Shown piece by piece: positions 886-45,742 of a DNA stretch of 64,000 nucleotides. The stretch spans positions 558,001 to 622,000 of the forward strand of contig NZ_BDAP01000002.1 in NCBI RefSeq assembly GCF_001598915.1, read 5' to 3'. The notes under the pieces were generated by a model. That model saw nothing but the letters and a program-made list of their open reading frames with translations. It had not been told where the DNA came from and ran no database searches. The DNA is from Williamsia muralis NBRC 105860. Its GTDB lineage: Bacteria; Actinomycetota; Actinomycetes; Mycobacteriales; Mycobacteriaceae. The translations under genes were made by a program, and so were the position numbers. Position 1 is the stretch's first letter, and every line of letters begins with the position of its first letter.

Positions 886-3207
886 TCAGGATGCGATGTC
901 GAGTACTGCGGCCACGATGGCATCGGAGTCGATGTGGTGATAGCGATACACATCCTCGAGGGAACCGGCCTGGCCGAAGCCCGAGACGCCCAGAGCGATG
1001 CTCTTGACGTGATTGATCGATGGTAGGAACGACATTGCGTTCGGATGTCCATCCAGGACTGTGACCATCGGGGCGGCCTTTTCCGGGGGGAACACCTGAT
1101 CCAGGATCCAGGAAGGACCAGCACTTTGTCCGCGGCGGGCCTGTTTGGCCTCGAACAGCAGGCTCAGACTGGTGACGCACACGATCTCGGCGGCCGTTCC
1201 CATATCGGCGAGTCGGTCTGCCGCAACGATCGCCTCAGTGACCATGGCGCCCATGGTCACGATCGTTGCCGCCGGGTTACGTTGGGCCCGTAGCGTGTAG
1301 GCGCCCGCAAGTACGTGCGCACGGCGGCGTTCGCGGGCCGCAGGATCTGAGGGCACCTCGGCCAGAGCCTGTTCCACCGGACGAGTTGACAGCCGAAGGT
1401 ACGCCGATCGTCCCTCAGGTGTACCCAACTGCGAGATGCACTTGAGCAGAATCCATTCCACGTCGATGGCGAACGCGGGCTCGTAGCTGACACATCCAGG
1501 TTGTTCGAGCCCGATTGACGGCGTCTTGATCGACTGATGGGCCCCGCCCTCGGCGGCCAGACTCACCCCGGACGGCGTACCGACCAAAATCGATTGCCCC
1601 CCAGCGTAAATCCCGTACGACCAAGGCTCCAGCGCGCGCTCAACGAAGGGGTCGTAGAGCACGCCGATCGGAAACAGGCGCTCACCCCACCGGCTCCAGG
1701 TCGTACCCAACTCCCCGATCAGGCCGACCAGGTTGGTTTCGGCGATCCCCAACTCCATGTGCTGGCCCGTCGGATTCTCCCGCCAATGCATGATGGTTTC
1801 GCCGTCGTCGTCGAACCAGTTTCGTCGCTCTGAGGGAGACCACACCCCGACCTTGTTCAGCCAGCCCGCCAGGTTCGTCGTGGAGCTGACATCAGGACTG
1901 ACTGTGACCACGCGTTTGGCCACGTCCGGCGCTTCGCGTGAGAGGTCGAGCAGGGCTCGTCCCAGAGCAGCCTGGGTGGTGGATTTCGTGGCCGGAGTTC
2001 GACCGATATCAGAGGGGAATCTGAGCTCGGATGGGACGGGAACAGGTCTGCGCTGCAACCGTTTCGCCGCCTCCCGGCACACAATCCCGGCGGGTGATTG
2101 TTGGTCAAATCGGCGCCACGGGTGGGTCGGGTCTTCGCCGAGTTGCTTGGCCAGTGCGGTGAACTGGGCGGGGCTCAACAACGAGGAGTGGTTTTGGGGA
2201 TGGCCTTGTGTGGGTAGCCCGTAGCCCTTGATGGTGTAGGCGATGATGACGGTTGGTCGGTTGTCGTCGATCTGGTTGTAGGCATGGCGCATCGATTCGA
2301 AGTCGTGCCCGCCCAAGTTCGCTATCGCCTGCACCAAGGTGGCGTTGTCCAATTCGCCGATGAGGCCGGCGATTGAGCCCGCCTCGGGTGAGTTGCCGGG
2401 CAGTCGAGTGCGGATCTCGTCGGCGTCACACCGCAGCAGGCGTTGGTATTCCGCGTTGGGCATCTGCAGGATGCGGGTTCGTAGTGCATCACCGCCGACA
2501 CGGCTGAACAGTTCCTCTAGCAACCGGCCGAATCTGACCGTGATTACCTGCCAGCCTGCCGCGGCGAACATCGCTTCGAGCCGATTGGCGGCGATGTTGG
2601 GCACCACGCGGTCGAGAGACTGTCGGTTCATGTCGACGATCCATACGATCTCGCCGAGGGCTTCGACAGAAGGATCCAGGATTGCTTCCCACACCGCGCC
2701 TTCGTCGAGTTCGGCGTCGCCGACCAAGGAATACTGACGCCCGGTGCCCGTGGTCGCCAGGGTCGTGTCGACGTAGCGTCGAGCAATCGCTCCCCAGATC
2801 GGTGCTGTCGCACCGATTCCCACCGATCCGGTGGAATAGTCGACCGGATCGGGGTCTTTGGCTCGGCTCGGGTAGCTTTGCAGGCCACCGAACTCGCGCA
2901 GCGTGGACAGGTACTCCTCATCGAGAAGACCGAGAAGATAGTTGATGCTGTGCAGGACCGGTGAGGCGTGCGGTTTGACAGACACCCGGTCGTCGGCGCG
3001 TAGCTGCTCGAACCACAACGAGGTCATGATTGTCACCATGGACGCTGAAGATGCTTGGTGGCCACCGACCTTGAGGCCCGAAGTGTTCGGACGAACATGA
3101 TTGGCGTGGTGGATGATGGCTGTCGAGGTCCAGAGCACACGCTGCGCGATCAGCGAGAGCGGATCGTCGTGGGAGCCTGCGGCGTCATTTCGGTGGTGTT
3201 CGGTCAC
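886..3207 (-). CDS. AceE-like / transketolase-family thiamine-diphosphate enzyme
   Basis: This 773-residue protein belongs to the transketolase superfamily and most resembles the homodimeric E1 component of pyruvate dehydrogenase (AceE). The ThDP motif starts with GDAELDEG at about residues 163-170 and ends with DMNRQSLD near 192-199, matching the AceE pattern GDGEMDE...N. Phrases such as HASPVLHSINY, GHPQNH and the C-terminal SGFGQAGS also fit this family. It is shorter than usual AceE (about 890-930 residues). No E2 or E3 gene is nearby, so it may act as a stand-alone 2-oxoacid decarboxylase or transketolase, or borrow partners. The divergent Lrp-type gene is the likely regulator. The exact reaction is unknown. 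Confidence 0.85.
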   Translation of the reverse strand: MTEHHRNDAAGSHDDPLSLIAQRVLWTSTAIIHHANHVRPNTSGLKVGGHQASSASMVTIMTSLWFEQLRADDRVSVKPHASPVLHSINYLLGLLDEEYLSTLREFGGLQSYPSRAKDPDPVDYSTGSVGIGATAPIWGAIARRYVDTTLATTGTGRQYSLVGDAELDEGAVWEAILDPSVEALGEIVWIVDMNRQSLDRVVPNIAANRLEAMFAAAGWQVITVRFGRLLEELFSRVGGDALRTRILQMPNAEYQRLLRCDADEIRTRLPGNSPEAGSIAGLIGELDNATLVQAIANLGGHDFESMRHAYNQIDDNRPTVIIAYTIKGYGLPTQGHPQNHSSLLSPAQFTALAKQLGEDPTHPWRRFDQQSPAGIVCREAAKRLQRRPVPVPSELRFPSDIGRTPATKSTTQAALGRALLDLSREAPDVAKRVVTVSPDVSSTTNLAGWLNKVGVWSPSERRNWFDDDGETIMHWRENPTGQHMELGIAETNLVGLIGELGTTWSRWGERLFPIGVLYDPFVERALEPWSYGIYAGGQSILVGTPSGVSLAAEGGAHQSIKTPSIGLEQPGCVSYEPAFAIDVEWILLKCISQLGTPEGRSAYLRLSTRPVEQALAEVPSDPAARERRRAHVLAGAYTLRAQRNPAATIVTMGAMVTEAIVAADRLADMGTAAEIVCVTSLSLLFEAKQARRGQSAGPSWILDQVFPPEKAAPMVTVLDGHPNAMSFLPSINHVKSIALGVSGFGQAGSLEDVYRYHHIDSDAIVAAVLDIAS

Positions 3208-34121: not shown

Positions 34122-35345
34122 TCAGATGACCCCGTGCAGCGGTGGTGGTGTGTCGTGCAGCAACGAACGACCGATGTGCTGGTACTTCCACCGCACCGGG
34201 TCGTGCAAGGTGTGCGTGCGCGCGTTGCGCCAGAAGTGATCCAGGCCGAGATCTGCTGCGGCGCTTCGCGTTCCTGATACCTCGAAGAGTGCGCTCGACA
34301 CCTCGTTGGAGGCCCGGTCGGCAACAATCTTCGCTGTCGCCACCGCAATCGAAGCGGCGGCGGCTCGCTCTGCTGTCGCGTCGGCCTCAGCCACGAACGT
34401 GGCGTCCACCGCCTCGCCGGCGCTCTTCAGGGTTGCCTCGGCGGAGATCACCTCCACGGCCAACTCGCCGACGCGTTGAATCACCAACGGGTCGTCGATG
34501 GCGCGATCGACACCTGCCTCGAACCAGGGGCGACTGCGGCTTCGGACGAAATCTGTTGCAGCAGAAAGCGCTCCGCGAGCGATGCCGGCGTCGATGGCCA
34601 CGTGCAGCAGCTGGGCAAACGCGCCGTACCCGGCGGGGGCGCCCACCGCGCGAGCCCGGGCGACCAACTGGTCGCGGCGCAGGGACACTCCTTCGAACGT
34701 GATGGTGCCGCTGCCCGTGGTGCGCTGGCCGAGTCCGTTCCAGTCATCGACGATGCGGACACCGGCGGCGTCGGCGGGGATGAACGCCACGTACTCGCCT
34801 TCGTCGAGACCCGTCTTGTGGTCGGGGTCGTCGAGCCGTGCCAGCACCGCGAGCGTATGGGCGTACAGCGATCCGGTGCAGTAGTACTTCGAGCCGTCCA
34901 GACGGAGTACGCCGCGGTCCGCTCTGACCGTGGTGGTGATGTCGGCAACGGTCTTGCCGCCCCGCTCGGACTGCGCATTCGCGATCCGGCTTCCGCCCAA
35001 TACCGCCTCGAAGAGATCGCGCTGCTGTGGTGGATCAGCAGCCAGACGAAGCAGATTCAGGTACACGAAGTGGCTGTGCGGGATCTGCGCGATGTTGGGA
35101 TCGGCTGTTGCAAGGATGCGGACCACCTCGGCCACGATGCTCGGCGGCAGGTCTGCACCACCGAAACGGCTCGGCACCGTGATCGCCAGCAGTCCGCTGG
35201 CCGACAGCTGATCGATCTCGCGATAGGGGAGTTTTCGGTCGCGATCGCGAGCCACCGCGCCGGTGGCGAAATGTGCTGCCAGGTCGTGGGCCACCGACAG
35301 TGCCTGCTCGGCAGTGTCGATGCGAGAGGCGATCGCGGTGCTCAC
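34122..35345 (-). CDS. SfnB/DszC-like acyl-CoA-dehydrogenase-fold flavin monooxygenase
   Basis: The 407-residue protein has the acyl-CoA dehydrogenase fold and fits the sulfur-acquisition branch (SfnB, DszC). Typical blocks are ITVPSRFGGADLPPSIVAEV, IPHSHFVYLNLLRL, LDGSKYYCTGSLYAHTLAVL and the C-terminal ARTHTLHDPVRWKYQHIG, with a histidine seen in this branch. It probably oxidises a sulfur compound with reduced flavin. The GTG start at 35345 overlaps the sfnG stop by four bases. It is the last gene of a three-gene organosulfur operon. Confidence 0.85.
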   Translation of the reverse strand: MSTAIASRIDTAEQALSVAHDLAAHFATGAVARDRDRKLPYREIDQLSASGLLAITVPSRFGGADLPPSIVAEVVRILATADPNIAQIPHSHFVYLNLLRLAADPPQQRDLFEAVLGGSRIANAQSERGGKTVADITTTVRADRGVLRLDGSKYYCTGSLYAHTLAVLARLDDPDHKTGLDEGEYVAFIPADAAGVRIVDDWNGLGQRTTGSGTITFEGVSLRRDQLVARARAVGAPAGYGAFAQLLHVAIDAGIARGALSAATDFVRSRSRPWFEAGVDRAIDDPLVIQRVGELAVEVISAEATLKSAGEAVDATFVAEADATAERAAAASIAVATAKIVADRASNEVSSALFEVSGTRSAAADLGLDHFWRNARTHTLHDPVRWKYQHIGRSLLHDTPPPLHGVI

Positions 35346-36460
35346 GATGCGCCGACGCCGGCTTCCGCGTCGGCCGCTTCGAGTTCACGAACCAGCGGCA
35401 GCACCTTCGCACCGAAGTATTCGATCTCTTCCTGAAAGTGCAGGAAGCCGCCGAGGACCAGGTCGACGCCAAGCCGCTTGTAGGCGACGATCCGCTCGGC
35501 GACCTGTTCCGGCGTGCCGATCAGCTTGGTCTTGAACCCGTCGTTGTACTGCACGAGGTCCTCGAAGCTCGACTCGGCCCACATGCCCTTGCCGTCCGAG
35601 GTGGACGCGCCGGCCTGCTGCACCGAATCCCGGAACCCCTCGACTGCAGGACGATTGGCCTTCTCGATGATCTCCCGGAGGGTGTCCCGGGCCTCGGCCT
35701 CGGTGTCGCGGGCGATGATGAACCCGTTCAGACCGAACTTCACCTCGCGGTCGTGCGCCCTGGCGACCGCACGCAGGTCATCGACCTGCTCGGTGACACC
35801 ATCGAAGTCCTTGCCGTTGGAGAAGTACCAGTCGGCGAAGCGTCCGCCGTTGCTGCGGGCGGCGGTGGAGTTACCTCCCTGGAACAGTTCGGGATTGGGG
35901 CGCTCGGGTGTGTTGAGCGGCTTGGGCTTGAGGGTGAAGTCACGGATCCGGTAGAAGTCGCCACCGTAATCGACATTGTCCTCGGTCCAGATCTTGCGGA
36001 TGACCTCGAGGAACTCGGCACTGCGCCGGTAGCGTTCGTCGTGCTCGAGCCAGGGCTCACCCAGCGCCTTGAACTCTCCGGCGAACCATCCCGACACGAC
36101 GTTGATGGCGAACCGGCCGCCCGAGAGGTGGTCGGCGGTAGCCCCGAACTTGGCCAGCACCGCCGGATGCCACAGGCCGGGATGGATGGCTGCGATGACC
36201 TTGAGCTTTTCGGTGGCCCCCAACAGTGCAAGGCTGAAAGCTGTTGATTCGTGCTGGAACTCGGCGCCGTAGGACGCCATGTACCGCACCTGTGACAGTG
36301 CGTACTCGAAGCCGTTGTTCTCGGCGGTCTGTGCGAGCTTCTTGTTGTACTCGAAGTCCCAGCTCGTTCGCTGTTCGATGTCACTGGTCACCAGGCCGCC
36401 ACTGACGTTGGGGACCCAGTAGGCGAACTTGATCTGATCGGCGATGTGTTCGGTGCTCAC
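35342..36460 (-). CDS. sfnG: Dimethylsulfone monooxygenase (SfnG)
   Basis: The 372-residue luciferase-like flavin monooxygenase fits SfnG, which uses FMNH2 and oxygen to split dimethylsulfone to methanesulfinate. Typical features are KFAYWVPNVSGGLVTSDIEQ near the start, AAIHPGLWHPAVLAKFGATA, FAINVVSGWFAGEFKALGEP and FQGGNSTAARSNGGRFADWY. GTG 36460 has GGAG seven bases upstream; the frame is open to 36955 but that part is shadow. It follows ssuD and is coupled to the sfnB-like gene, forming a route from dialkyl sulfones and alkanesulfonates to sulfite. Confidence 0.88.
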   Translation of the reverse strand: MSTEHIADQIKFAYWVPNVSGGLVTSDIEQRTSWDFEYNKKLAQTAENNGFEYALSQVRYMASYGAEFQHESTAFSLALLGATEKLKVIAAIHPGLWHPAVLAKFGATADHLSGGRFAINVVSGWFAGEFKALGEPWLEHDERYRRSAEFLEVIRKIWTEDNVDYGGDFYRIRDFTLKPKPLNTPERPNPELFQGGNSTAARSNGGRFADWYFSNGKDFDGVTEQVDDLRAVARAHDREVKFGLNGFIIARDTEAEARDTLREIIEKANRPAVEGFRDSVQQAGASTSDGKGMWAESSFEDLVQYNDGFKTKLIGTPEQVAERIVAYKRLGVDLVLGGFLHFQEEIEYFGAKVLPLVRELEAADAEAGVGAS

Positions 36461-36533
36461 GGTTTGCTCCAATGGTTCTGCGGGAGGGGTCAATCGGGCT
36501 AGGTGAAGGCGGGTTGGGTGAAGGCGCAGCCCG

Positions 36534-37712
36534 TCAGGACGCGCCGGCCGGCGACAACGACGGCAGGAAGGCTCCCCGGACAGGCTCGGACACGCGGTCA
36601 TCGGCACTGAGCAGGCCGCGCCGGATGAGTCTCGGGCGCACGCCCTCTCCGAAGTGGTAGGCCTCTTCCACGTGGGGGTAGCCGGACAGGATGAAGTGAT
36701 CGAGCCCCAGAGCCGCGTACTCCGCGATGCGGTCGGCCACCTCGTCGTGCGAGCCGACCAGCGCAGTGCCGGCTCCGCCTCGGACGAGCCCGACGCCGGT
36801 CCAGAGGTTCGGGTAGATCTCAAGCGAACGGGCATCGGTACCGCTGCTGAACGCCGCGCCTCCGCCGTGCAGTTCGAGCATTCGCCGTTGCCCTTCTGAT
36901 TCCGAGCGGGCGAGGTTCTGCTGGGCTCCGGCGACCACCTGCGGGTCGAGTGCACCGAGAAGCCGGTCGGCTTCGGCCCAGGCCTGTTCCGCGGTGTCCC
37001 GCGAGATCACGTGCAGCCGGATGCCGTAGGACAGCTCACGACCCTCGTCCGCGGCGAGCCCGCGGATCCAGTTGAGCTTCTCGGCGACCGCGTCCGGTTT
37101 CTCACCCCAGGTCAGATAGGTGTCGGCGTACTTGGAAGCGACGGTTCCCGCTGCCGGGGAGGAACCGCCGAAGAACACGGGCGGAAGCGGATCGGGCTTA
37201 CGGGCCAGGTGAGCGCCCTCGACCCGCAGATGCTTGCCCGTGAAGTCCACCGGGCCGTCGGAGGTCCACAACTGCCGGATGATGTCGAGGTACTCGCCGC
37301 ACCGCTCGTACCGGGCCTCCTTGGACAGGAAGTCGCCGAAAGCGCGCTGTTCCGACGATTCACCTCCGGTGACCACGTTGAGCAGGAGCCGTCCCTTCGA
37401 CTGCCACTGATAGGTCGCCGACATCTGTGCCGACAGGGTGGGGCTGGTCAGCCCCGGTCGCAGGGCGACGAGGAACTTGAGGGTGTCGGTGGTCTCCAGC
37501 AACATCGCGGTGGACAACCACGCGTCCTCGCACCACAAGCCGGTGGGCGTGAGGACGGCTTCGAATCCGTTGACCTCGGCGGCACCGGCGAGCTGATTGA
37601 GATAACGCAGATCGGCGGGCCGATCTCCGGACATGTCAGAACCGTGACCACCCGCCATCAGATTCCGTGAGTCGCCATACGTCGGCAGGAACCAGTGGAA
37701 ATGCAGGGACAC
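36534..37712 (-). CDS. ssuD: Alkanesulfonate monooxygenase (SsuD-like)
   Basis: The protein of about 392 residues fits the FMNH2-dependent alkanesulfonate monooxygenase SsuD/MsuD, which releases sulfite and an aldehyde. It begins SLHFHWFLPTYGDSR, close to the SsuD N-terminus, and has the RLLLNVVTGGESSEQRAFGD and PPVFFGGSSPAAGTVA blocks. GTG 37712 is chosen because AAAGG precedes it at good spacing and because homologues start there; ATG 37733 is the alternative. It heads the organosulfur operon. A dedicated flavin reductase is not in the cluster. Confidence 0.88.
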   Translation of the reverse strand: MSLHFHWFLPTYGDSRNLMAGGHGSDMSGDRPADLRYLNQLAGAAEVNGFEAVLTPTGLWCEDAWLSTAMLLETTDTLKFLVALRPGLTSPTLSAQMSATYQWQSKGRLLLNVVTGGESSEQRAFGDFLSKEARYERCGEYLDIIRQLWTSDGPVDFTGKHLRVEGAHLARKPDPLPPVFFGGSSPAAGTVASKYADTYLTWGEKPDAVAEKLNWIRGLAADEGRELSYGIRLHVISRDTAEQAWAEADRLLGALDPQVVAGAQQNLARSESEGQRRMLELHGGGAAFSSGTDARSLEIYPNLWTGVGLVRGGAGTALVGSHDEVADRIAEYAALGLDHFILSGYPHVEEAYHFGEGVRPRLIRRGLLSADDRVSEPVRGAFLPSLSPAGAS

Positions 37713-37938
37713 GGAGGACGCCTTTCTGTTCATCTGGCGGTTCGTCTGGAGCGACCCGTGGTCGACGACGCCAAAAGCCTGGAGTTTCGAACACAGTGTG
37801 GGCGGCGTCGACGCGGCGATCCCAGGGTTCGGATCGGTGTGATTCCAAGTCGGCGATCGCCGCTGCCGCGGGGCTATTCTCGCCGGTGAGCGCGGTGTCG
37901 ACCTGCGCTCAGATCGTCACGTCCGCGACCCCGGTCCG

Positions 37939-37968
37939 TTGGACAGGTGTCGTCGCCGCTGCTACTTT
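37939..37968 (+). promoter_or_regulatory. Promoter of the leaderless cysteine leader peptide
   Basis: TTGGAC (37939-37944) and TACTTT (37963-37968) are separated by 18 bases. The -10 ends seven bases before the leader ATG at 37976, so the predicted transcript begins at or next to that ATG and has no 5' UTR. The rest of the 457-base gap between ssuD and the ROK gene shows no other convincing gene. Confidence 0.6.
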
Positions 37969-37975
37969 GACCTTC

Positions 37976-38077
37976 ATGACGAGCAACGGCCACCACATCC
38001 CGGAGGTCACCTATGTGACCACCGCGCTGGGATGTCGTCTGCCTTTCGCTCGTGTCCTCTGTTGTCGAATGTCCTGA
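37976..38077 (+). CDS. 33-residue cysteine-containing leader peptide
   Basis: This leaderless frame encodes 33 residues ending LPFARVLCCRMS, with a further cysteine in ALGCR, so three Cys codons lie in the last 14 residues, two adjacent. In mycobacteria, leaderless short frames rich in cysteine codons near the end act as cysteine-responsive attenuators of sulfur genes; ribosome stalling at Cys codons when Cys-tRNA is short changes the fold of the downstream RNA. Here the peptide precedes a ROK regulator gene (start 92 bases on) beside an organosulfur operon. The role is inferred from position, promoter and codon content. Confidence 0.65.
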   Translation: MTSNGHHIPEVTYVTTALGCRLPFARVLCCRMS

Positions 38078-38135
38078 CCCGAACCGCCGCGATCGCGGCA
38101 TTTCTCTCAGACATTTCCCCGCCCCGGCCATCGTT

Positions 38136-38165
38136 GGTCCTGGAGGCGACAACTCGATGAGGACC
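38136..38165 (+). promoter_or_regulatory. Hairpin that would mask the ROK gene ribosome-binding site
   Basis: GGTCCT (38136-38141) pairs perfectly with AGGACC (38160-38165), which holds the AGGA Shine-Dalgarno five to nine bases before the ROK start at 38170. The loop also contains a second Shine-Dalgarno (GGAGG) and an ATG at 38157 that opens a 9-residue frame, MRTFDDCNT, overlapping the ROK start. Upstream, the 12-base palindrome CCGCGATCGCGG near 38088 could form a competing structure. Confidence 0.45.
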
Positions 38166-38169
38166 TTCG

Positions 38170-39558
38170 ATGACTGCAACACTTGACCACCGCATAGCAA
38201 CACCTGTTCGCCCGTCCGCTCGACCCAATGTCCCGGAGACGCAGCGCAGCGGAGTTCGGCAGGGTGGCCCAGCCGGATCGCGGATCGGTTCGCCTGCTCG
38301 GCCCGCTCATCCGCAGCCCGCGCCCGGTCAGAAGCCGGCGCCCGCCAAGTTCGGCGGAACCCGCGCCGGTATCCACGTCGCGACACCTCAGCTTCATCTG
38401 TCGACCAAACCGGCGGCAGTTGTCCTGCGAGCGGCCCGGCTGCACGGCCCAGTGTTCCGCGACGCGGCATCGGCCGCATCGGGGTTGAGTATCTCGACGG
38501 TGAACCGTCAGGTCAGCGCCCTGCTGAAGGCCGGGCTACTGCGCGAGCGTGCCGACCTGGCACCCGCAGGCGCAATCGGTCGTCCCCGCCTCCCGTTCGA
38601 GCTGAACACCGCCGAATACCTGACGGTGGGCATCCACATCGGTCTCAAGGTCACCTCGATCACCACCCACGACCTGTTTCACCGCGTGGTTGGCGCCATC
38701 CAGATCCCGACCCCGGCTGCCGACACCCCCGAGCAGACCCTGACGTCGATCGGATTGAGCGCGAAACGTTTCCTCTCTCGCTGGCAGAACAAGCGCGTGC
38801 TCTGGGCCGGGGTGGCGCTGGCCGGCCGGGTCGACAACGGCGGACGTGTGAGCCATTCCCGGTTGAACTGGCAATCCGCGCCCGTCGGCGAGGTCCTGGC
38901 ATCGGTGATCGGTCTGCCCATCTCGGTGGCCTCGCACGTCGAGGCGATGGCTGCCGCGGAACTCCTGCTCAACCCCCAAGCGGAATTGTTGGTCGATCCA
39001 GGTCAAGAAGGCGGCAGCTTCGTCTACTTCTACGCCCGGGAAACGGTTGGTATCGCCTTCACCGTCGGTGGAAGCGTGTACACACCCACCGCCGGGCCGC
39101 CGGAGATCGGACATTTCCCCGCGGGCCGCACCGAACTCCTCGACCCCCACCGCACCGGTCGCCTCGAACCGACCGTGAGCGACACCGGTGTGGTCGACGC
39201 CGCGATCGCTGCGGGGTTGACCATCGAGACCGTCGAAGACGTGCACCAGCTCGCTGCCGCAGGCAACGACGTGGCCCGCGCCATCCTGACCGAGAGGGCC
39301 GAAGTACTCGGCCGTGCGGTCGGCCTCATCTCTGACATCTTCAACCCCGACCACGTTGTCCTGGGCGGGCAGGCGTTCACGGATGCGCCTTCGACTCTGC
39401 CCGTGGTGGCCAGAGCTGTTCGCGAGACCTCTGTGTCCGAACGGCGCGACGTGCGCGTGTCACGGTCGGGTGCCACCGTGCAGCAGCAGGCCGCCGGCGC
39501 GGTTTCGCTTGATGCGATCTACAGCGACCCGATCGAGGCCCTTTCCCGGAGTCTGTGA
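38170..39558 (+). CDS. ROK family transcriptional regulator
   Basis: The 462-residue protein has a basic, Pro-rich N-terminal extension of about 70 residues, a winged HTH at about 80-140 (AASAASGLSISTVNRQVSAL) and a ROK sugar-kinase-like domain after it (GVALAGRVDNGGRV, SHVEAMAAAELLL, ISDIFNPDHVVLGGQ). The cysteine cluster typical of zinc-binding ROK kinases is not evident, so it is probably a regulator without kinase activity. Its place next to ssuD-sfnG-sfnB and behind a Cys leader suggests a role in sulfur-source control. The long N-terminal extension is unusual. Confidence 0.85.
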   Translation: MTATLDHRIATPVRPSARPNVPETQRSGVRQGGPAGSRIGSPARPAHPQPAPGQKPAPAKFGGTRAGIHVATPQLHLSTKPAAVVLRAARLHGPVFRDAASAASGLSISTVNRQVSALLKAGLLRERADLAPAGAIGRPRLPFELNTAEYLTVGIHIGLKVTSITTHDLFHRVVGAIQIPTPAADTPEQTLTSIGLSAKRFLSRWQNKRVLWAGVALAGRVDNGGRVSHSRLNWQSAPVGEVLASVIGLPISVASHVEAMAAAELLLNPQAELLVDPGQEGGSFVYFYARETVGIAFTVGGSVYTPTAGPPEIGHFPAGRTELLDPHRTGRLEPTVSDTGVVDAAIAAGLTIETVEDVHQLAAAGNDVARAILTERAEVLGRAVGLISDIFNPDHVVLGGQAFTDAPSTLPVVARAVRETSVSERRDVRVSRSGATVQQQAAGAVSLDAIYSDPIEALSRSL

Positions 39559-39613: not shown

Positions 39614-40468
39614 TCAGTCCGTGGTGCGCTTGCGGTAAGCGCGCAACGCGAACGGCGCGAAGATCAGCGTGAGTGCCACCGACCAGAGGACCGTGGAGAG
39701 TTCCGGGTTCTGAAGTGGCCACGGGGCATCGGCCGGCGCCGCCGGTCCATTGCCCCACAATTCGCGCATCGCCTGGACGAGTGACGAGATCGGGTTCCAC
39801 TCCGCGATGGTGCGCAACCAGGTGGGCATGGGCTCTGTGGGCACAAAAGCGTTGGACAAGAACGTAATCGGGAACAGCAAGGTGAACATCACGCCGTTGA
39901 CCGCTTCTGGCGACCGCATCACCGAACCGATCAGGATGCCGAACCAGATCATGGCGAACCCGAACACCAGCACCAGAGCAAAAGCCAACGCGGCCTTGGC
40001 GATGCCTTCGTGGATGCGCCATCCGATGAGCAGACCCGTGATGGCCATGACCACGATGCCGATCGACGAGTGGATCAGCGCTGCGACCGAACGTCCGACC
40101 AGAACGGACGACCGTGCCATCGGCAACGACCGGAAGCGGTCGATGATGCCCTTCTCCAGATCGTTGGTGAGACCAAGCGCGACGATGAACGCAGAGAAGG
40201 CAATGGTCTGGCCCATGATCCCGGGCAACAGCCACTCTTTGTAGTCGAATCCGGAGCCAGGACTGATCGACGCACCGAACACGTACGCGAACAACAGCAC
40301 GAACATGATCGGCTGCACCGTGACGTCGGACAGCATCTCTGGCTGGCGCTTGGTGTGTAACAGGTTGCGCCGCACCATGACCAGAGATTCTCGGACCAGA
40401 TCAGGCCGGCCTGCAGCGGATTTCGGGGTGGAGCGGCCGGTGTCGGCCGGTGACGTGGTGGTGGTCAT
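39614..40468 (-). CDS. ABC-2 type exporter permease (DrrB-like)
   Basis: The 284-residue protein has six membrane helices and the ABC-2/DrrB signature EWLLPGIMGQTIAFSAFIV followed by LTNDLEKGIIDRFRSLPMAR. After the last loop (NAFVPTEPMPTWLRTIAEWN) a final helix ends in a basic tail. It pairs with the ATPase gene, which its start overlaps by four bases. The cargo is unknown; relatives export drugs or lipids. Confidence 0.9.
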   Translation of the reverse strand: MTTTTSPADTGRSTPKSAAGRPDLVRESLVMVRRNLLHTKRQPEMLSDVTVQPIMFVLLFAYVFGASISPGSGFDYKEWLLPGIMGQTIAFSAFIVALGLTNDLEKGIIDRFRSLPMARSSVLVGRSVAALIHSSIGIVVMAITGLLIGWRIHEGIAKAALAFALVLVFGFAMIWFGILIGSVMRSPEAVNGVMFTLLFPITFLSNAFVPTEPMPTWLRTIAEWNPISSLVQAMRELWGNGPAAPADAPWPLQNPELSTVLWSVALTLIFAPFALRAYRKRTTD

Positions 40469-41511
40469 GACTTGTTCTCCTCGTTGTCGGCGTCCTCTGC
40501 GCGGTGTCCGGTGAGGGAGAGGAAGACGTCGTCCAGGCTCGGACGGGTGAGTCCGATGTCGTCGACTGCGATCTCACTGCGTTCGAAGATCCCGGCGATC
40601 CGGGTCAGGTCGGCGAGTCCATCGGCGCTCGCGGTGAGCTGGCGTGCGGACTCCTCGACGAACACCTCGCCGCTGTTCTCGCGCAGCAACCGGGTGGCTT
40701 CTTCGAGATCGTCGGCATGCGAGACCGTGATGACCAGACTGGCCTGCCCGGCTTGTTCCTTGAGTTGTAGTGGCGTGCCGGCGGCAATGATCTTGCCCCT
40801 GTCGATGACAACGATGTCGTCGGCGAGCTGGTCGGCCTCTTCGAGATACTGCGTGGTGAGCAGCAGCGTGGTTCCGTCATTCACCAGCGATCGCAGCACG
40901 TCCCAGAGTTCCTGGCGGCTGCGCGGGTCGAGGCCGGTGGTGGGCTCGTCCAGGAAGAGCACCGGCGGCGAGGCCAGGAGGCTGACCGCGAGGTCGAGCC
41001 GACGGCGCATACCTCCCGAGTAGGTCTTGACCACGCGGTCCGCAGCGTCGGTCAGCGAGAACTGCTCGAGCAGTTGGTCGCCGGACCGGCGTACGTCCTT
41101 ACGGGGAAGACCGTAGAGGCTGCCGATCATCCACAGGTTCTCTCGGCCGGTGAGCAATTCGTCGACCGTCGCAGCCTGACCGGTGAGGCCCATGTTGCTG
41201 CGGACGAGATCCGGGTTCTCCCGTACGTCATATCCGGCGATGCGAGCAGTGCCCGACGTCGGCTGACTCAGTGTTGTCATCATGCGGACCGTGGTGGTCT
41301 TGCCCGCGCCGTTGGGCCCGAGCAGTCCCAGGACGGACCCCGGTGGAACCGAAAAACTAACTCCGTCGACAGCGCGGACGCCGTCGAATTCTTTGACCAG
41401 GTCGATGGCTTCGATCGCCAGGTCGGTGGCCCCCGTGGCAGTTGTCATGCGGGTAACCGTATCGACCGACTCTGACATCGGGCCAGCGCTTTTATCGCCG
41501 AGCTGGGTCAC
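40465..41511 (-). CDS. ABC exporter ATPase (DrrA-like)
   Basis: The 348-residue ATPase has Walker A GPNGAGKTTT, signature YSGGMRRRLDLA, Walker B VLFLDEPTTGLD and the H-loop replaced by Gln in LLLTTQYLEEAD, as in DrrA-type exporters. A C-terminal domain of about 100 residues carries the final RPSLDDVFLSLTG motif typical of the daunorubicin-resistance family. The GTG start at 41511 has GAGGAG at ideal spacing. It forms an exporter with the permease just downstream. Confidence 0.92.
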   Translation of the reverse strand: MTQLGDKSAGPMSESVDTVTRMTTATGATDLAIEAIDLVKEFDGVRAVDGVSFSVPPGSVLGLLGPNGAGKTTTVRMMTTLSQPTSGTARIAGYDVRENPDLVRSNMGLTGQAATVDELLTGRENLWMIGSLYGLPRKDVRRSGDQLLEQFSLTDAADRVVKTYSGGMRRRLDLAVSLLASPPVLFLDEPTTGLDPRSRQELWDVLRSLVNDGTTLLLTTQYLEEADQLADDIVVIDRGKIIAAGTPLQLKEQAGQASLVITVSHADDLEEATRLLRENSGEVFVEESARQLTASADGLADLTRIAGIFERSEIAVDDIGLTRPSLDDVFLSLTGHRAEDADNEENKS

Positions 41512-42627: not shown

Positions 42628-42674
42628 GCCGCAGATGCGGCTATACTCGATTGACAGCGCCGCACATGCGGCGC
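42628..42674 (+). promoter_or_regulatory. Two palindromes around the -10 of the molybdate operon
   Basis: GCCGCA-ga-TGCGGC (42628-42641) and GCGCCGCA-ca-TGCGGCGC (42657-42674) share the same 14-base core GCCGCASATGCGGC, with centres 31 bases apart. A -10-like TATACT (42642-42647) lies between them. Binding of a dimeric regulator on both sides would shut the promoter, fitting autoregulation by the HTH-Mop protein encoded next. Confidence 0.6.
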
Positions 42675-42685
42675 ACCATCGTCAG

Positions 42686-43087
42686 GTGGGCGATCTCAAG
42701 ATTCGACAGGCGGCAGAACTCCTCGGCCTCAGCGACGACACGGTGCGCCGGATGATCAGCGGGGGACAGCTCCCCGCCCATGTCGACGGCAGCGGCCGTC
42801 AGGTGGTCGACGGGGCCGACCTGGCCAAGGTCGCGCGCGACCGGGCACCCGGCGTCGTGTCGACCGATGCACCGGTGGCGCGTTCGGCCCGTAACCGATT
42901 CGTGGGCCTGGTCACCGACGTGCGCTCCGACCCGGTGATGAGCCAGGTGACCTTGCAGTGCGGCCCGTTCGAGGTGACCTCGTTAATGAGCACCGACGCC
43001 GTGAACGAACTCGGGCTACGGCCCGGGGAGGTCGCGACAGCGGTGGTCAAGGCCACCACGGTCATCGTCGAGACCAGGAGCAGGTGA
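42686..43087 (+). CDS. HTH-Mop (TOBE) molybdate-responsive regulator
   Basis: The protein of about 133 residues has an excisionase/MerR-like N-terminal HTH (KIRQAAELLGLSDDTVRRMI) and a C-terminal Mop/TOBE molybdate-binding domain (NRFVGLVTDVRSDPVMSQVT to AVVKATTVIVETR). It sits just before modABC, and its stop overlaps the modA start (TGATG), so it is the likely molybdate sensor that controls the operon. The frame is open to ATG 42635, but a TATACT -10 at 42642 would place transcription start after that ATG, so GTG 42686 is preferred, without a good Shine-Dalgarno. Confidence 0.85.
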   Translation: MGDLKIRQAAELLGLSDDTVRRMISGGQLPAHVDGSGRQVVDGADLAKVARDRAPGVVSTDAPVARSARNRFVGLVTDVRSDPVMSQVTLQCGPFEVTSLMSTDAVNELGLRPGEVATAVVKATTVIVETRSR

Positions 43088-43875
43088 TGGGCCGGCGGAG
43101 ATCCACGACATCGGTTCGACTCTCCGAGTCGCTCGGTGTGGTGTTCGCTGCCGCCCTGGTGCTCGCAGGGTGCTCGACCAGCGGCACAGAAGGCGGACAA
43201 GACGACGAAGCCGGCCTCACCGTGTTCGCCGCAGCCTCGTTGAAGAACAGCTTCACGGCATTGGCCGACGAGTTCTCCGAGACGCACGGCGGCGTCGACG
43301 TCTCCCTGAACTTCGACGGCTCCCAGGCGCTTGTCACGCAGATCGAACAGGGCGCCGACGCAGACGTCGTGGCCACGGCCGACGAGAAGAGCATGGCGAA
43401 ACTGGGCGAGAAGGTGGCTGATCCGCAGATCTTTGCCACCAATGTGCTCACCATCGTCACCGCCCCGGGGAATCCAAAGAACATCCGTACCCTGGCCGAC
43501 GTGACGAAAGACGGTGTCACGACTGTCATCTGCTCGGTGAGTGTGCCCTGTGGCAGCGCCGCCGCCCTGGTCGAGAAGAACACCGGTATCGACATCAAGC
43601 CGGTGAGTGAGGAAACGGCGGTGACCGGGGTACTCAGCAAGGTCCAGACGGGGCAGGCCGACGCGGGATTGGTGTACGTCACCGACGCCGTCGGCGCGGG
43701 TGACTCGGTCACCACCGTCGCCGACCCCGCCCTTGCCGCGGTGGTCAACGCATATCCCATCGGGACAGTAGCCGAGTCGGAGAACGCACCTCTGGCACAG
43801 CAATTCGTCGACATGGTCACGGGTGCGCAGGGGGCGGCGGTACTCGAGCGAATGGGCTTCGGGCCGGCGACGTGA
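43087..43875 (+). CDS. modA: Molybdate ABC transporter substrate-binding lipoprotein
   Basis: The 262-residue protein has a lipoprotein signal (VLAGC, lipidated Cys about 29) and the ModA fold: [40 protein letters not shown], and [17 protein letters not shown]. ModA binds molybdate or tungstate outside the membrane and delivers it to ModBC. The start at 43087 overlaps the stop of the regulator gene. The order regulator-modA-modB-modC, with overlaps throughout, shows one operon. Confidence 0.93.
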
Positions 43876-44678
43876 AGGCTTCGCAATCCGGTCTCAAGGC
43901 CGTTCCGGCATGGTTGTACGTGCCGGCCGCCCTCGGTATCGCACTGGTGATGCTGCCGCCCATCGCATTGGCGGTGAACACTCCCTGGGAAGACTTCTGG
44001 GACAACATCACGTCCGAATCATCCGTGGACGCACTGGCGTTGAGCGTGCAGACGGCCGCGATCAGTACCGTCCTGTGCATCCTTCTGGGCGTTCCGATGT
44101 CGATCGTGTTCGCGCGGCGCGGTGGCAGCACCGTGCGCGTGGTGCGTTCGGTGGTGCTGCTGCCTCTGGTCCTGCCGCCGGTGGTCGGGGGAATCGGTCT
44201 CCTCTACGCCTTCGGGAAGTTCGGCTTGGTGGGCGAACATCTTTCGGCCATCGGAATCGACATCGCATTCACCACCTCGGCAGTGGTGCTGGCGCAGACC
44301 TTCGTGGCACTTCCCTTTCTTGTCATCAGTCTGGAGGGAGCGCTGCGCACCGTCGGGGCGCGATACGAACAGGTGGCGGCCACGCTCGGGGCGTCGCCCA
44401 CCCGCACCCTGTGGAAAGTGACAATGCCACTGGTGTTTCCGGCGCTGCTCTCCGGAATGGTGCTGGCGTTCGCCCGTGCGCTCGGCGAGTTCGGCGCGAC
44501 GATCACGTTTGCGGGCAATCTCCAGGGTGTCACCCAGACTGCGCCGTTGGCGATCTACGTTGAGTCGATCAGTGAACCGGAACAGGCGCTTCCGCTCTCC
44601 GTGGTCCTCGTCGTGGTCGCGTTGCTCGTCGTGGTGGCCGTGCACGTGCGCGATTCGCGGCGGACGGCTGTGCTGTGA
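43872..44678 (+). CDS. modB: Molybdate ABC transporter permease
   Basis: The 268-residue permease has five to six membrane helices and the ModB/CysT-type EAA loop [20 protein letters not shown] that contacts the ATPase. [20 protein letters not shown] and [16 protein letters not shown] are hallmarks of molybdate permeases. The start overlaps the modA stop by four bases (GTGA), and its own stop overlaps the modC start by four. Confidence 0.93.
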
Positions 44679-45742
44679 CAGGCGATCTGGTCGCGTCGCT
44701 GCGCAATGAGCTGCCGGCCATCGACGTCGAACTGACTGTTCCGCAGGGGCATACCGTCGCCGTCATGGGCCCCAACGGTGCCGGCAAGAGCACACTGATG
44801 AATCTGCTGGCCGGATTGTCGAGGCCGGGTGCCGGACGAATAGCCCTGGGATCGCGAGAATTGTTCGGCAACAGCACTTTCATGCCTCCACACCGACGCG
44901 ACGTGTCGATGCTGACGCAGCAGGGACTGTTGTTCCCACACCTCACCGTGAGGCAGAACGTGGCGTTCGGACCGTCGGCGAGGCGCCTGCCAAGAGCTCA
45001 GATCAGGGCTCGCACCGACAAGTGGCTCGACGCCGTCGGCGCCACCGAACTCGCGGATCGCAAGCCGGCGCAACTGTCCGGAGGTCAGTCGCAGCGGGTG
45101 TCGCTGGCGCGCGCGCTTGCCACCGAGCCGTCGGTGCTGCTGCTCGACGAGCCGTTCAGTGCACTCGATGTAGATGTGGTCCACCGCATCCGGTCGATGC
45201 TCCGACAGATTCTCGCGGACCGCGCGCGGATCACGGTGTTGGTGACCCACGACGTCGCTGACGCCGTGACGCTCGCTGACTCGGCGGTCATCTTGGCCGA
45301 GGGCCGGATCGTGGCGCGTGGCCCGGTCCGTGACTTGCTGGCCAGCCCGATCAACCAGTTCTCGGCGCAACTCGCCGGACTCAATCTGGTGAGCGGAGTC
45401 TGGAACGGTGACGTCCTGGAAGCCGCCGGCTTTGCGGTCTCCGGATTGCTCGATGCGCCGATTGCGCCGGAAAGTGCTGTGATGGCGGCCTTTTCGCCGC
45501 GCGCTGTCGCCGTCTATCGGGAGCGGCCCAGCGGCAGCCCGCGCAACGCCGTGAAGGCCGTTGTTGTGCAACTTGTTCCGCAGGGCGATCTCGCACGGAT
45601 CGACGCCCGGGTTGCTGATGGAACGATCCTCACCGCGACCGTGACCTGGTCGGCCGTCACCGAGCTGGGACTTGTTGCCGACGATGAGGTGTTCCTGGTG
45701 ATCAAGGCGAGTGAAGTGACCGTGTACGAGAGTCGGCACTGA
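44675..45742 (+). CDS. modC: Molybdate ABC transporter ATPase with TOBE domain
   Basis: The 355-residue ATPase has Walker [10 protein letters not shown], signature [16 protein letters not shown], Walker [13 protein letters not shown] and the H-loop [11 protein letters not shown]. The C-terminal 100 residues form a Mop/TOBE-type regulatory domain ([20 protein letters not shown]), which in ModC binds oxyanion and can inhibit transport. The 280 bases from here to the next gene hold the promoter region of the ehu operon but no clear consensus promoter or gene. Confidence 0.93.

Follow-up and report, generated by a model that had tools for sequence, protein, structure and literature searches.

Organization of the locus

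The window analysed here is a 64,000-nucleotide stretch of the Williamsia muralis NBRC 105860 genome. On its forward strand the gene for a 462-residue ROK regulator (38170–39558) is preceded by a short open reading frame (ORF) of the leaderless type (37976–38077, forward strand), which is defined by its sequence and its relatives and consists of 33 codons plus a stop. The ATG lies at 37976 and the stop codon at 38075–38077, and the translation is MTSNGHHIPEVTYVTTALGCRLPFARVLCCRMS. All three cysteine codons are TGT; they begin at 38033, 38060 and 38063 and encode Cys20, Cys29 and Cys30, respectively. A spacer of 92 nt (35 C, 24 G, 18 T and 15 A) separates the leader stop codon from the ROK ATG. 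Upstream, a putative promoter (37939–37968, forward strand) consists of TTGGAC (37939–37944), an 18-nt spacer and TACTTT (37963–37968), which ends seven bases 5′ of the leader ATG; it rests on the sequence and on the retention of TANNNT in relatives. The first-pass annotation had described a leaderless-type 33-codon frame in front of the ROK gene, and its frame, length, cysteine codons and gap are all exact. It also spoke of a consensus promoter; TACTTT does lie seven bases before the ATG, but a σ70 consensus scan of 37500–38500 gave no match and the wording was too strong.

Assignment of the downstream gene to the ROK family, proposed at the same stage, is borne out by Pfam (PF00480, 56.9 bits; cut-off 22.9) and by its relatives. 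Divergent from it on the reverse strand lie an ssuD-like alkanesulfonate monooxygenase gene (36534–37733), which is a possible target of the regulator, sfnG for a dimethylsulfone monooxygenase (35342–36517; 5′ end not fixed) and sfnB for a sulfur acquisition oxidoreductase (34122–35345). The neighbours had been read as ssuD-sfnG-sfnB. For SfnG (NCBIfam TIGR04021, 624.7 bits; cut-off 382.95) and SfnB (TIGR04022, 481.3 bits; cut-off 430.9) the reading stands, whereas the ssuD-like product scores below its NCBIfam cut-off (438.2 of 510 bits). On the other side, genes for a DrrA/DrrB-type ABC exporter (39614–41511) are convergent with the ROK gene, and a DrrA/DrrB-type permease homologue is likewise found downstream of ROK in 6/6 Williamsia and 14/17 Gordonia loci. 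Further on, the translations of ORFs at 42635–45742 read like a helix-turn-helix/molybdate-binding gene followed by modA-modB-modC.

A scan of both strands detected no other leaderless Cys-rich ORF within the window, and base shuffles of 37734–38169 produced one on the forward strand in 10 of 2000 cases. Searches of known families returned nothing, whether with Rfam over 37700–38400 (E up to 1) or with NCBIfam and Pfam using four leader peptides, and the letters of the leader core were not found in the running text of the papers searched.

Two other features of the start region may be recorded. An out-of-frame ATG frame, MRTFDDCNT (38157–38186), begins 13 nt 5′ of the ROK ATG and overlaps the ROK start; it is preceded by GGAGG (38142–38146) and might compete for initiation, and its ATG is missing from several Williamsia relatives. 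A GC-rich hairpin, GCCGCGATCGCGGC then ATTTCTCTCA, lies at 38086–38099. It was rejected as an intrinsic terminator, being at chance level (one found compared with 0.5 in shuffles).

Conservation of the leader across relatives

When 101 relatives were searched with the ROK protein, 53 had a match at E ≤ 1e-60. Among 50 ROK ortholog loci selected from these, the window's own included, a leader profile matched in 40. A different leaderless-type Cys-rich ORF, such as MLSSQVCPRRACCCRAHRRA, is present in another seven, whose genera have other peptides; no leader is present in two (L033 and L039) and one (L020) is cut by a contig end. The 354 of 401 matches at E ≤ 1 include many weak ones and were not used.

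We also applied a motif-free rule, in which TANNNT must end 5–9 nt before an ATG or GTG that opens at least ten codons within 520 nt upstream, with CC or three cysteines among the last 16 residues. By this rule, to which the promoter element proposed earlier belongs, a leader was found in 76 of 80 named ROK loci, the best among the matches listed, and in none of 1404 control windows taken from those loci, the controls being mostly coding DNA. For this reason the leader ORF is not a product of chance, and conservation is a stronger argument here than the shuffles. Three of the remaining four loci have the peptide core described below with one terminal cysteine, and the fourth, from Nocardia sp. 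MH4, has neither. Counting rule or core, these best named loci give 6/6 in Williamsia, 17/17 in Gordonia, 6/6 in Tsukamurella, 19/19 in Rhodococcus, 21/22 in Nocardia and 7/7 in mycobacteria.

Among 17 other ROK loci, either paralogous or more distantly related (eight second-copy ROK genes, three best ROK genes of another family and six other ROK genes), none carries the leader, and when its profile was compared with 249 genomes drawn from the order, the 12 that matched all came from the same family. No profile match was seen in the presumed Mycobacterium genus (g29) among the matches listed, because mycobacterial leaders are without the core. Eleven genomes of the presumed Corynebacterium genus included four with a ROK match (30–38% identity) and no leader. 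A Tsukamurella-like ROK gene with a leader on a contig titled Acidobacteriaceae (L171) probably represents a mis-binned actinobacterial contig. Taken together, the comparisons show that most of the relatives compared have a predicted ORF of leaderless type with a terminal cysteine cluster in front of the ROK gene; this holds for Mycobacterium too, although the peptide is otherwise different there. A comparison across related genomes had been suggested as a check on the original reading; the frame is conserved, as is the Cys29 codon discussed below.

Cysteine leaders also occur elsewhere. When six sulfur-gene loci of the same genome were scanned with short flanks (L141 and L143–L147), only L143, on contig C2 beyond the end of the window, contained a leaderless Cys leader (VFTTTLVRRLAVDLCRVGAQSCCR, locus positions 215–289), which precedes taurine/sulfonate-type transporter genes; no leader was found in the scanned flank of the cysH-like locus L141. 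In another genome (G185, L124) a second full copy of the leader core lies near locus positions 3000–3110; it is followed not by ROK but by SBP_bac_5-type ABC transporter genes, and TauD and sulfatase genes diverge from it.

Sulfur-related neighbourhood of the ROK gene

The genes beside ROK vary with genus. An ssuD homologue lies upstream in 6/6 named Williamsia loci and 1/17 Gordonia loci, and a TauD homologue in 9/19 Rhodococcus loci and also in Antrihabitans, with a sulfatase upstream in six of the 19 Rhodococcus loci. In mycobacteria an SDR gene is upstream in 7/7 loci and MshA downstream in 6/7 (in L043 MshA scores above its cut-off); the corresponding counts are 12/19 and 7/19 in Rhodococcus, and these neighbours occur in 0/6 Williamsia loci.

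Published protein data bear on one member. In R. qingshengii IGTS8 the abundance of the ROK protein IGTS8_peg5940, which adjoins TauD and choline sulfatase, was 18- to 33-fold higher with dibenzothiophene than with sulfate (PMC8557817); that paper names no leader there. By species and gene order (L177–L179) this protein appears to correspond to the leader-bearing ROK regulator. The change in protein level could be transcriptional.

Constraint on the peptide and on its codons

The most conserved part of the leader is the peptide core LGxRLPxxR at codons 18–26 (38027–38053, forward strand), which was recognized by residue conservation with synonymous change. In 65 unique motif-free non-mycobacterial leaders Gly19, Arg21, Leu22, Pro23 and Arg26 are identical in all 65 and Leu18 is present in 64, while synonymous sites at Gly19, Arg21, Leu22, Pro23 and Arg26 vary with pS of 0.37–0.64. 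As the residues are fixed while synonymous sites change, the core peptide is, on this alignment, selected at the protein level. The low pN/pS of the core in leaders chosen by the motif is circular, since the motif was required; the motif-free set was made without it. The first ten residues and the tail of the leader vary freely.

Other positions are constrained as nucleotides. The Cys29 codon is TGT in 65/65 motif-free leaders; this set was picked for Cys-rich tails, so that the presence of Cys29 is partly by choice but its TGT codon is not. In the set picked by the core motif Cys29 is present in 117/118 and encoded by TGT in 116/117. Val14 is GTG in 54/54 and Val11 is GTC in 61/65 of the motif-free leaders. 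The constant TGT and the near-fixed valine codons indicate that nucleotides are selected at these positions. Elsewhere TGT is rare: the terminal cysteine codons of the leaders comprise 154 TGT and 46 TGC, compared with 1 TGT and 100 TGC in the ROK genes (tally excluding L004–L006, L103, L109 and L121), and the cysteine codons of 12 window genes comprise six TGC and no TGT. The mean number of cysteines is 2.6 in core-bearing and 4.5 in core-less leaders, the two sets having been chosen by different rules.

The valine codons fall within a palindrome, GTCACCTATGTGAC (38006–38019, forward strand), which spans the codons for VTYVT and was noted from codon choice and a single-strand fold. The form GTCACnTAnGTGA[CT] is present in 56/71 leaders, and in a single-strand fold GTCACnTAnGTGAC is able to form a hairpin in the leader RNA. 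The whole leader RNA folds more stably than its shuffles (z = −3.09; 2/200 as stable). The other exact GTCACnTAnGTGAC palindrome of the genome lies at L093 (contig C1:1398273).

Predicted pairing of the leader with the ROK ribosome-binding region

A strand near the end of the leader, GTCCTCTGTTGTCG (38054–38067, forward strand), contains both Cys29 (38060–38062) and Cys30 (38063–38065) and is complementary to the ROK ribosome-binding region (38147–38164, forward strand), which comprises CGACAAC (38147–38153) and GAGGAC (38159–38164). We propose it as an anti-Shine–Dalgarno strand from the comparison of native with swapped duplexes and from covariation. For these analyses ROK starts were chosen by requiring a Shine–Dalgarno-like site, and 80 of 87 leaders were carried forward, no start being picked for seven. 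Over 77 loci (L004–L006 omitted), duplexes between the final 42 nt of the leader and the ROK start region of the same genome have an energy of −21.36 kcal/mol, compared with −19.38 (s.d. 0.35) kcal/mol when the start regions come from other genomes; 0 of 5000 permutations, which ignore relatedness, were as strong. With L121 also omitted, the excess is present both in clade A (Williamsia/Gordonia-type, 40 loci; z = −3.4) and in clade B (the rest, 36 loci; z = −4.4). Other leader windows have no such excess, save a weaker one after the stop codon in clade B (z = −2.1). Covariation arm by arm is modest, with 249 of 351 cells paired in 39 clade A loci against a permutation mean of 242.0 (233/5000 as high), and RNAalifold yields only a weak consensus (−3.2 and −0.6 kcal/mol), the anti-Shine–Dalgarno helix alone being recovered.

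We modelled the release of the Shine–Dalgarno sequence by a ribosome assumed to cover the A-site codon together with 15 nt on its 5′ side and 12 nt on its 3′ side, leaving out the same loci as in the codon tally. In clade A the modelled openness is 0.15 for free RNA, 0.38 with the ribosome stalled at Cys and 0.21 with the ribosome at the stop codon, and the stalled state is more open than the stop state in 29/38 leaders. The corresponding values in clade B are 0.31, 0.29 and 0.31, with stalled above stop in 16/36. For the window's own sequence the model gives no release, the Shine–Dalgarno sequence being unpaired at 0.04 when free, 0.05 when stalled and 0.02 at stop, whereas five other sequences of the genus reach 0.43–0.50. 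This is likely to be because a second, local partner, GGTCCT (38136–38141, forward strand), seen in the minimum-free-energy fold, occupies the Shine–Dalgarno sequence AGGACC (38160–38165) in a hairpin. The model thus makes the release step plausible for Williamsia and Gordonia as a group, and the RNA step may differ in other genera.

Proposed mechanism and alternatives

In our view the leader probably attenuates the expression of a sulfur-linked ROK regulator in response to cysteine supply, with more ROK protein made when Cys-tRNA is scarce. For Williamsia we infer the transcript start, the translation, the cysteine response and the regulon. Transcription would begin at the leader ATG, where a 70S ribosome would initiate. 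With ample Cys-tRNA the ribosome would reach the stop codon, the strand at codons 27–31 would pair with the ROK Shine–Dalgarno sequence and little ROK protein would be made. With Cys-tRNA scarce it would halt at Cys29/Cys30, mask the anti-Shine–Dalgarno strand and free the ROK start, and ROK would then activate genes for organosulfur scavenging, for example the divergent ssuD-like gene, sfnG and sfnB. The rise of the IGTS8 ROK protein on dibenzothiophene lends independent support to this reading.

The position of the core beside the TGT cysteine codon suggests nascent-chain-assisted stalling. With Cys29 in the A site, LGxRLPxxR would occupy the upper part of the exit tunnel, and arrest would occur at this almost invariably TGT-encoded codon. 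One to a few cysteines would then suffice, whereas core-less leaders carry three to six, and the palindromic hairpin over VTYVT would add timing or a second input. That the leader acts across much of the family as a nascent-chain-assisted cysteine sensor setting the level of a ROK activator of sulfur scavenging is a bolder idea, which we keep in play but regard as less likely than not.

Other readings of the leader have to be weighed. The ribosome on the leader might instead decide whether Rho loads on the spacer, so that attenuation would be transcriptional through Rho-dependent termination. The spacer is C-rich (35 C in 92 nt), the Shine–Dalgarno release model fails for the 36 leaders outside Williamsia and Gordonia and for the window's own sequence, and Rho-dependent control was proposed in 2005 for mycobacterial Cys leaders (PMC1262725). 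However, a ribosome at Cys29 would cover little of the spacer and would if anything favour Rho, the opposite of what induction by cysteine shortage requires; the pairing of leaders with their own ROK start regions is significant in both clades, and the terminator-like hairpin is at chance level. We consider Rho-dependent attenuation unlikely.

Selection on part of the peptide would also be expected of a trans-acting product, such as a sensor of thiols or metals, whose position before ROK would reflect operon layout only. This is hard to reconcile with the free variation of the first ten residues and the tail, with the TGT codon of Cys29, which a trans-acting protein would not need, with mycobacterial leaders that retain Cys richness alone and with the second leader copy before ABC transporter genes in one genome, and we judge it highly improbable. 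The near-fixed synonymous choice at codons 11 and 14, and the position of the palindrome GTCACnTAnGTGAC about 30 nt inside the transcript, might point to a repressor operator exerting the main control of ROK at the DNA level, the Cys codons mattering little. A shared DNA operator was nevertheless rejected, since GTCACNTANGTGAC has one other exact site in the genome, the same number as the reversed control pattern; furthermore, mycobacterial and some other leaders are without the palindrome but keep the Cys cluster. We give an operator as the main control of ROK hardly any credence; one that acts at this single locus may still exist. By eye, nothing like the CysR half-site TGAAtnnAAt was seen in the ROK–ssuD gap, which was aligned and scanned for inverted repeats. 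The preferred reading remains attenuation of ROK by cysteine supply at the leader.

Relation to known systems

The leader is of a kind already known and its class is not new, because Shell et al. (2015) depicted, upstream of Rv0485/Msmeg_0932, a small leaderless ORF that is conserved and enriched in Cys (PMC4633059). The suggestion of a possibly new circuit in the first-pass annotation is not supported in principle, such a leader having been depicted there. In both cases a leaderless-type ORF with a Cys cluster precedes the corresponding gene. The mycobacterial loci found here appear to share the Rv0485 layout, with SDR upstream and MshA downstream, and Rv0485 is presumably the ROK gene adjoining Rv0484c and mshA. 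The differences are that the mycobacterial peptides are without the core VTYVTxALGxRLPxxRxLCC and that Williamsia loci carry ssuD in place of the SDR/MshA neighbours.

In M. smegmatis, polycysteine leaderless ORFs have been reported to regulate downstream translation by cysteine supply (Canestrari et al., 2020, as described in PMC9094748, PMC9031893 and PMC13236596). These attenuators are likewise leaderless with contiguous Cys codons, and the gene downstream is there under cysteine control; here, in contrast, the target is a transcription regulator, there is a conserved non-Cys core and some members have a single terminal cysteine. Cys leaders were predicted in 2005 for the cys operons of Mycobacterium and Propionibacterium acnes and for cbs of Bifidobacterium longum (PMC1262725). 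These short ORFs too have consecutive Cys codons close to their stop, but their targets are biosynthetic genes. The ROK proteins that regulate how Corynebacterium glutamicum uses sulfate and sulfonates, CysR and SsuR, are similarly linked to sulfonate genes; the cysR transcript, however, is itself described as leaderless (PMC2580772), so that no leader would precede C. glutamicum cysR. What the present analysis adds is breadth, sulfur-gene synteny, a link to published protein data and a protein-level core beside a TGT codon. In this last respect the leader resembles ribosome arrest peptides, which have conserved residues just upstream of the stall codon: residues selected at the protein level lie close to the proposed stall codon. 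It differs from them in that amino-acid supply would be sensed via Cys codons and that stalling is putative.

Biological implications

The juxtaposition of LGxRLPxxR and TGT marks the leader as a possible new stalling peptide that is open to experimental test. The analysis also bears on fuel desulfurisation, which is repressed by sulfur sources (PMC9426449), and it hints that the Rv0485 group has a role connected with sulfur. If the proposed mechanism is true, translation-level cysteine sensing would be joined to a transcription factor in Williamsia, Gordonia, Rhodococcus, Nocardia, Tsukamurella and mycobacteria, and one leader could tune a sulfur-scavenging programme.
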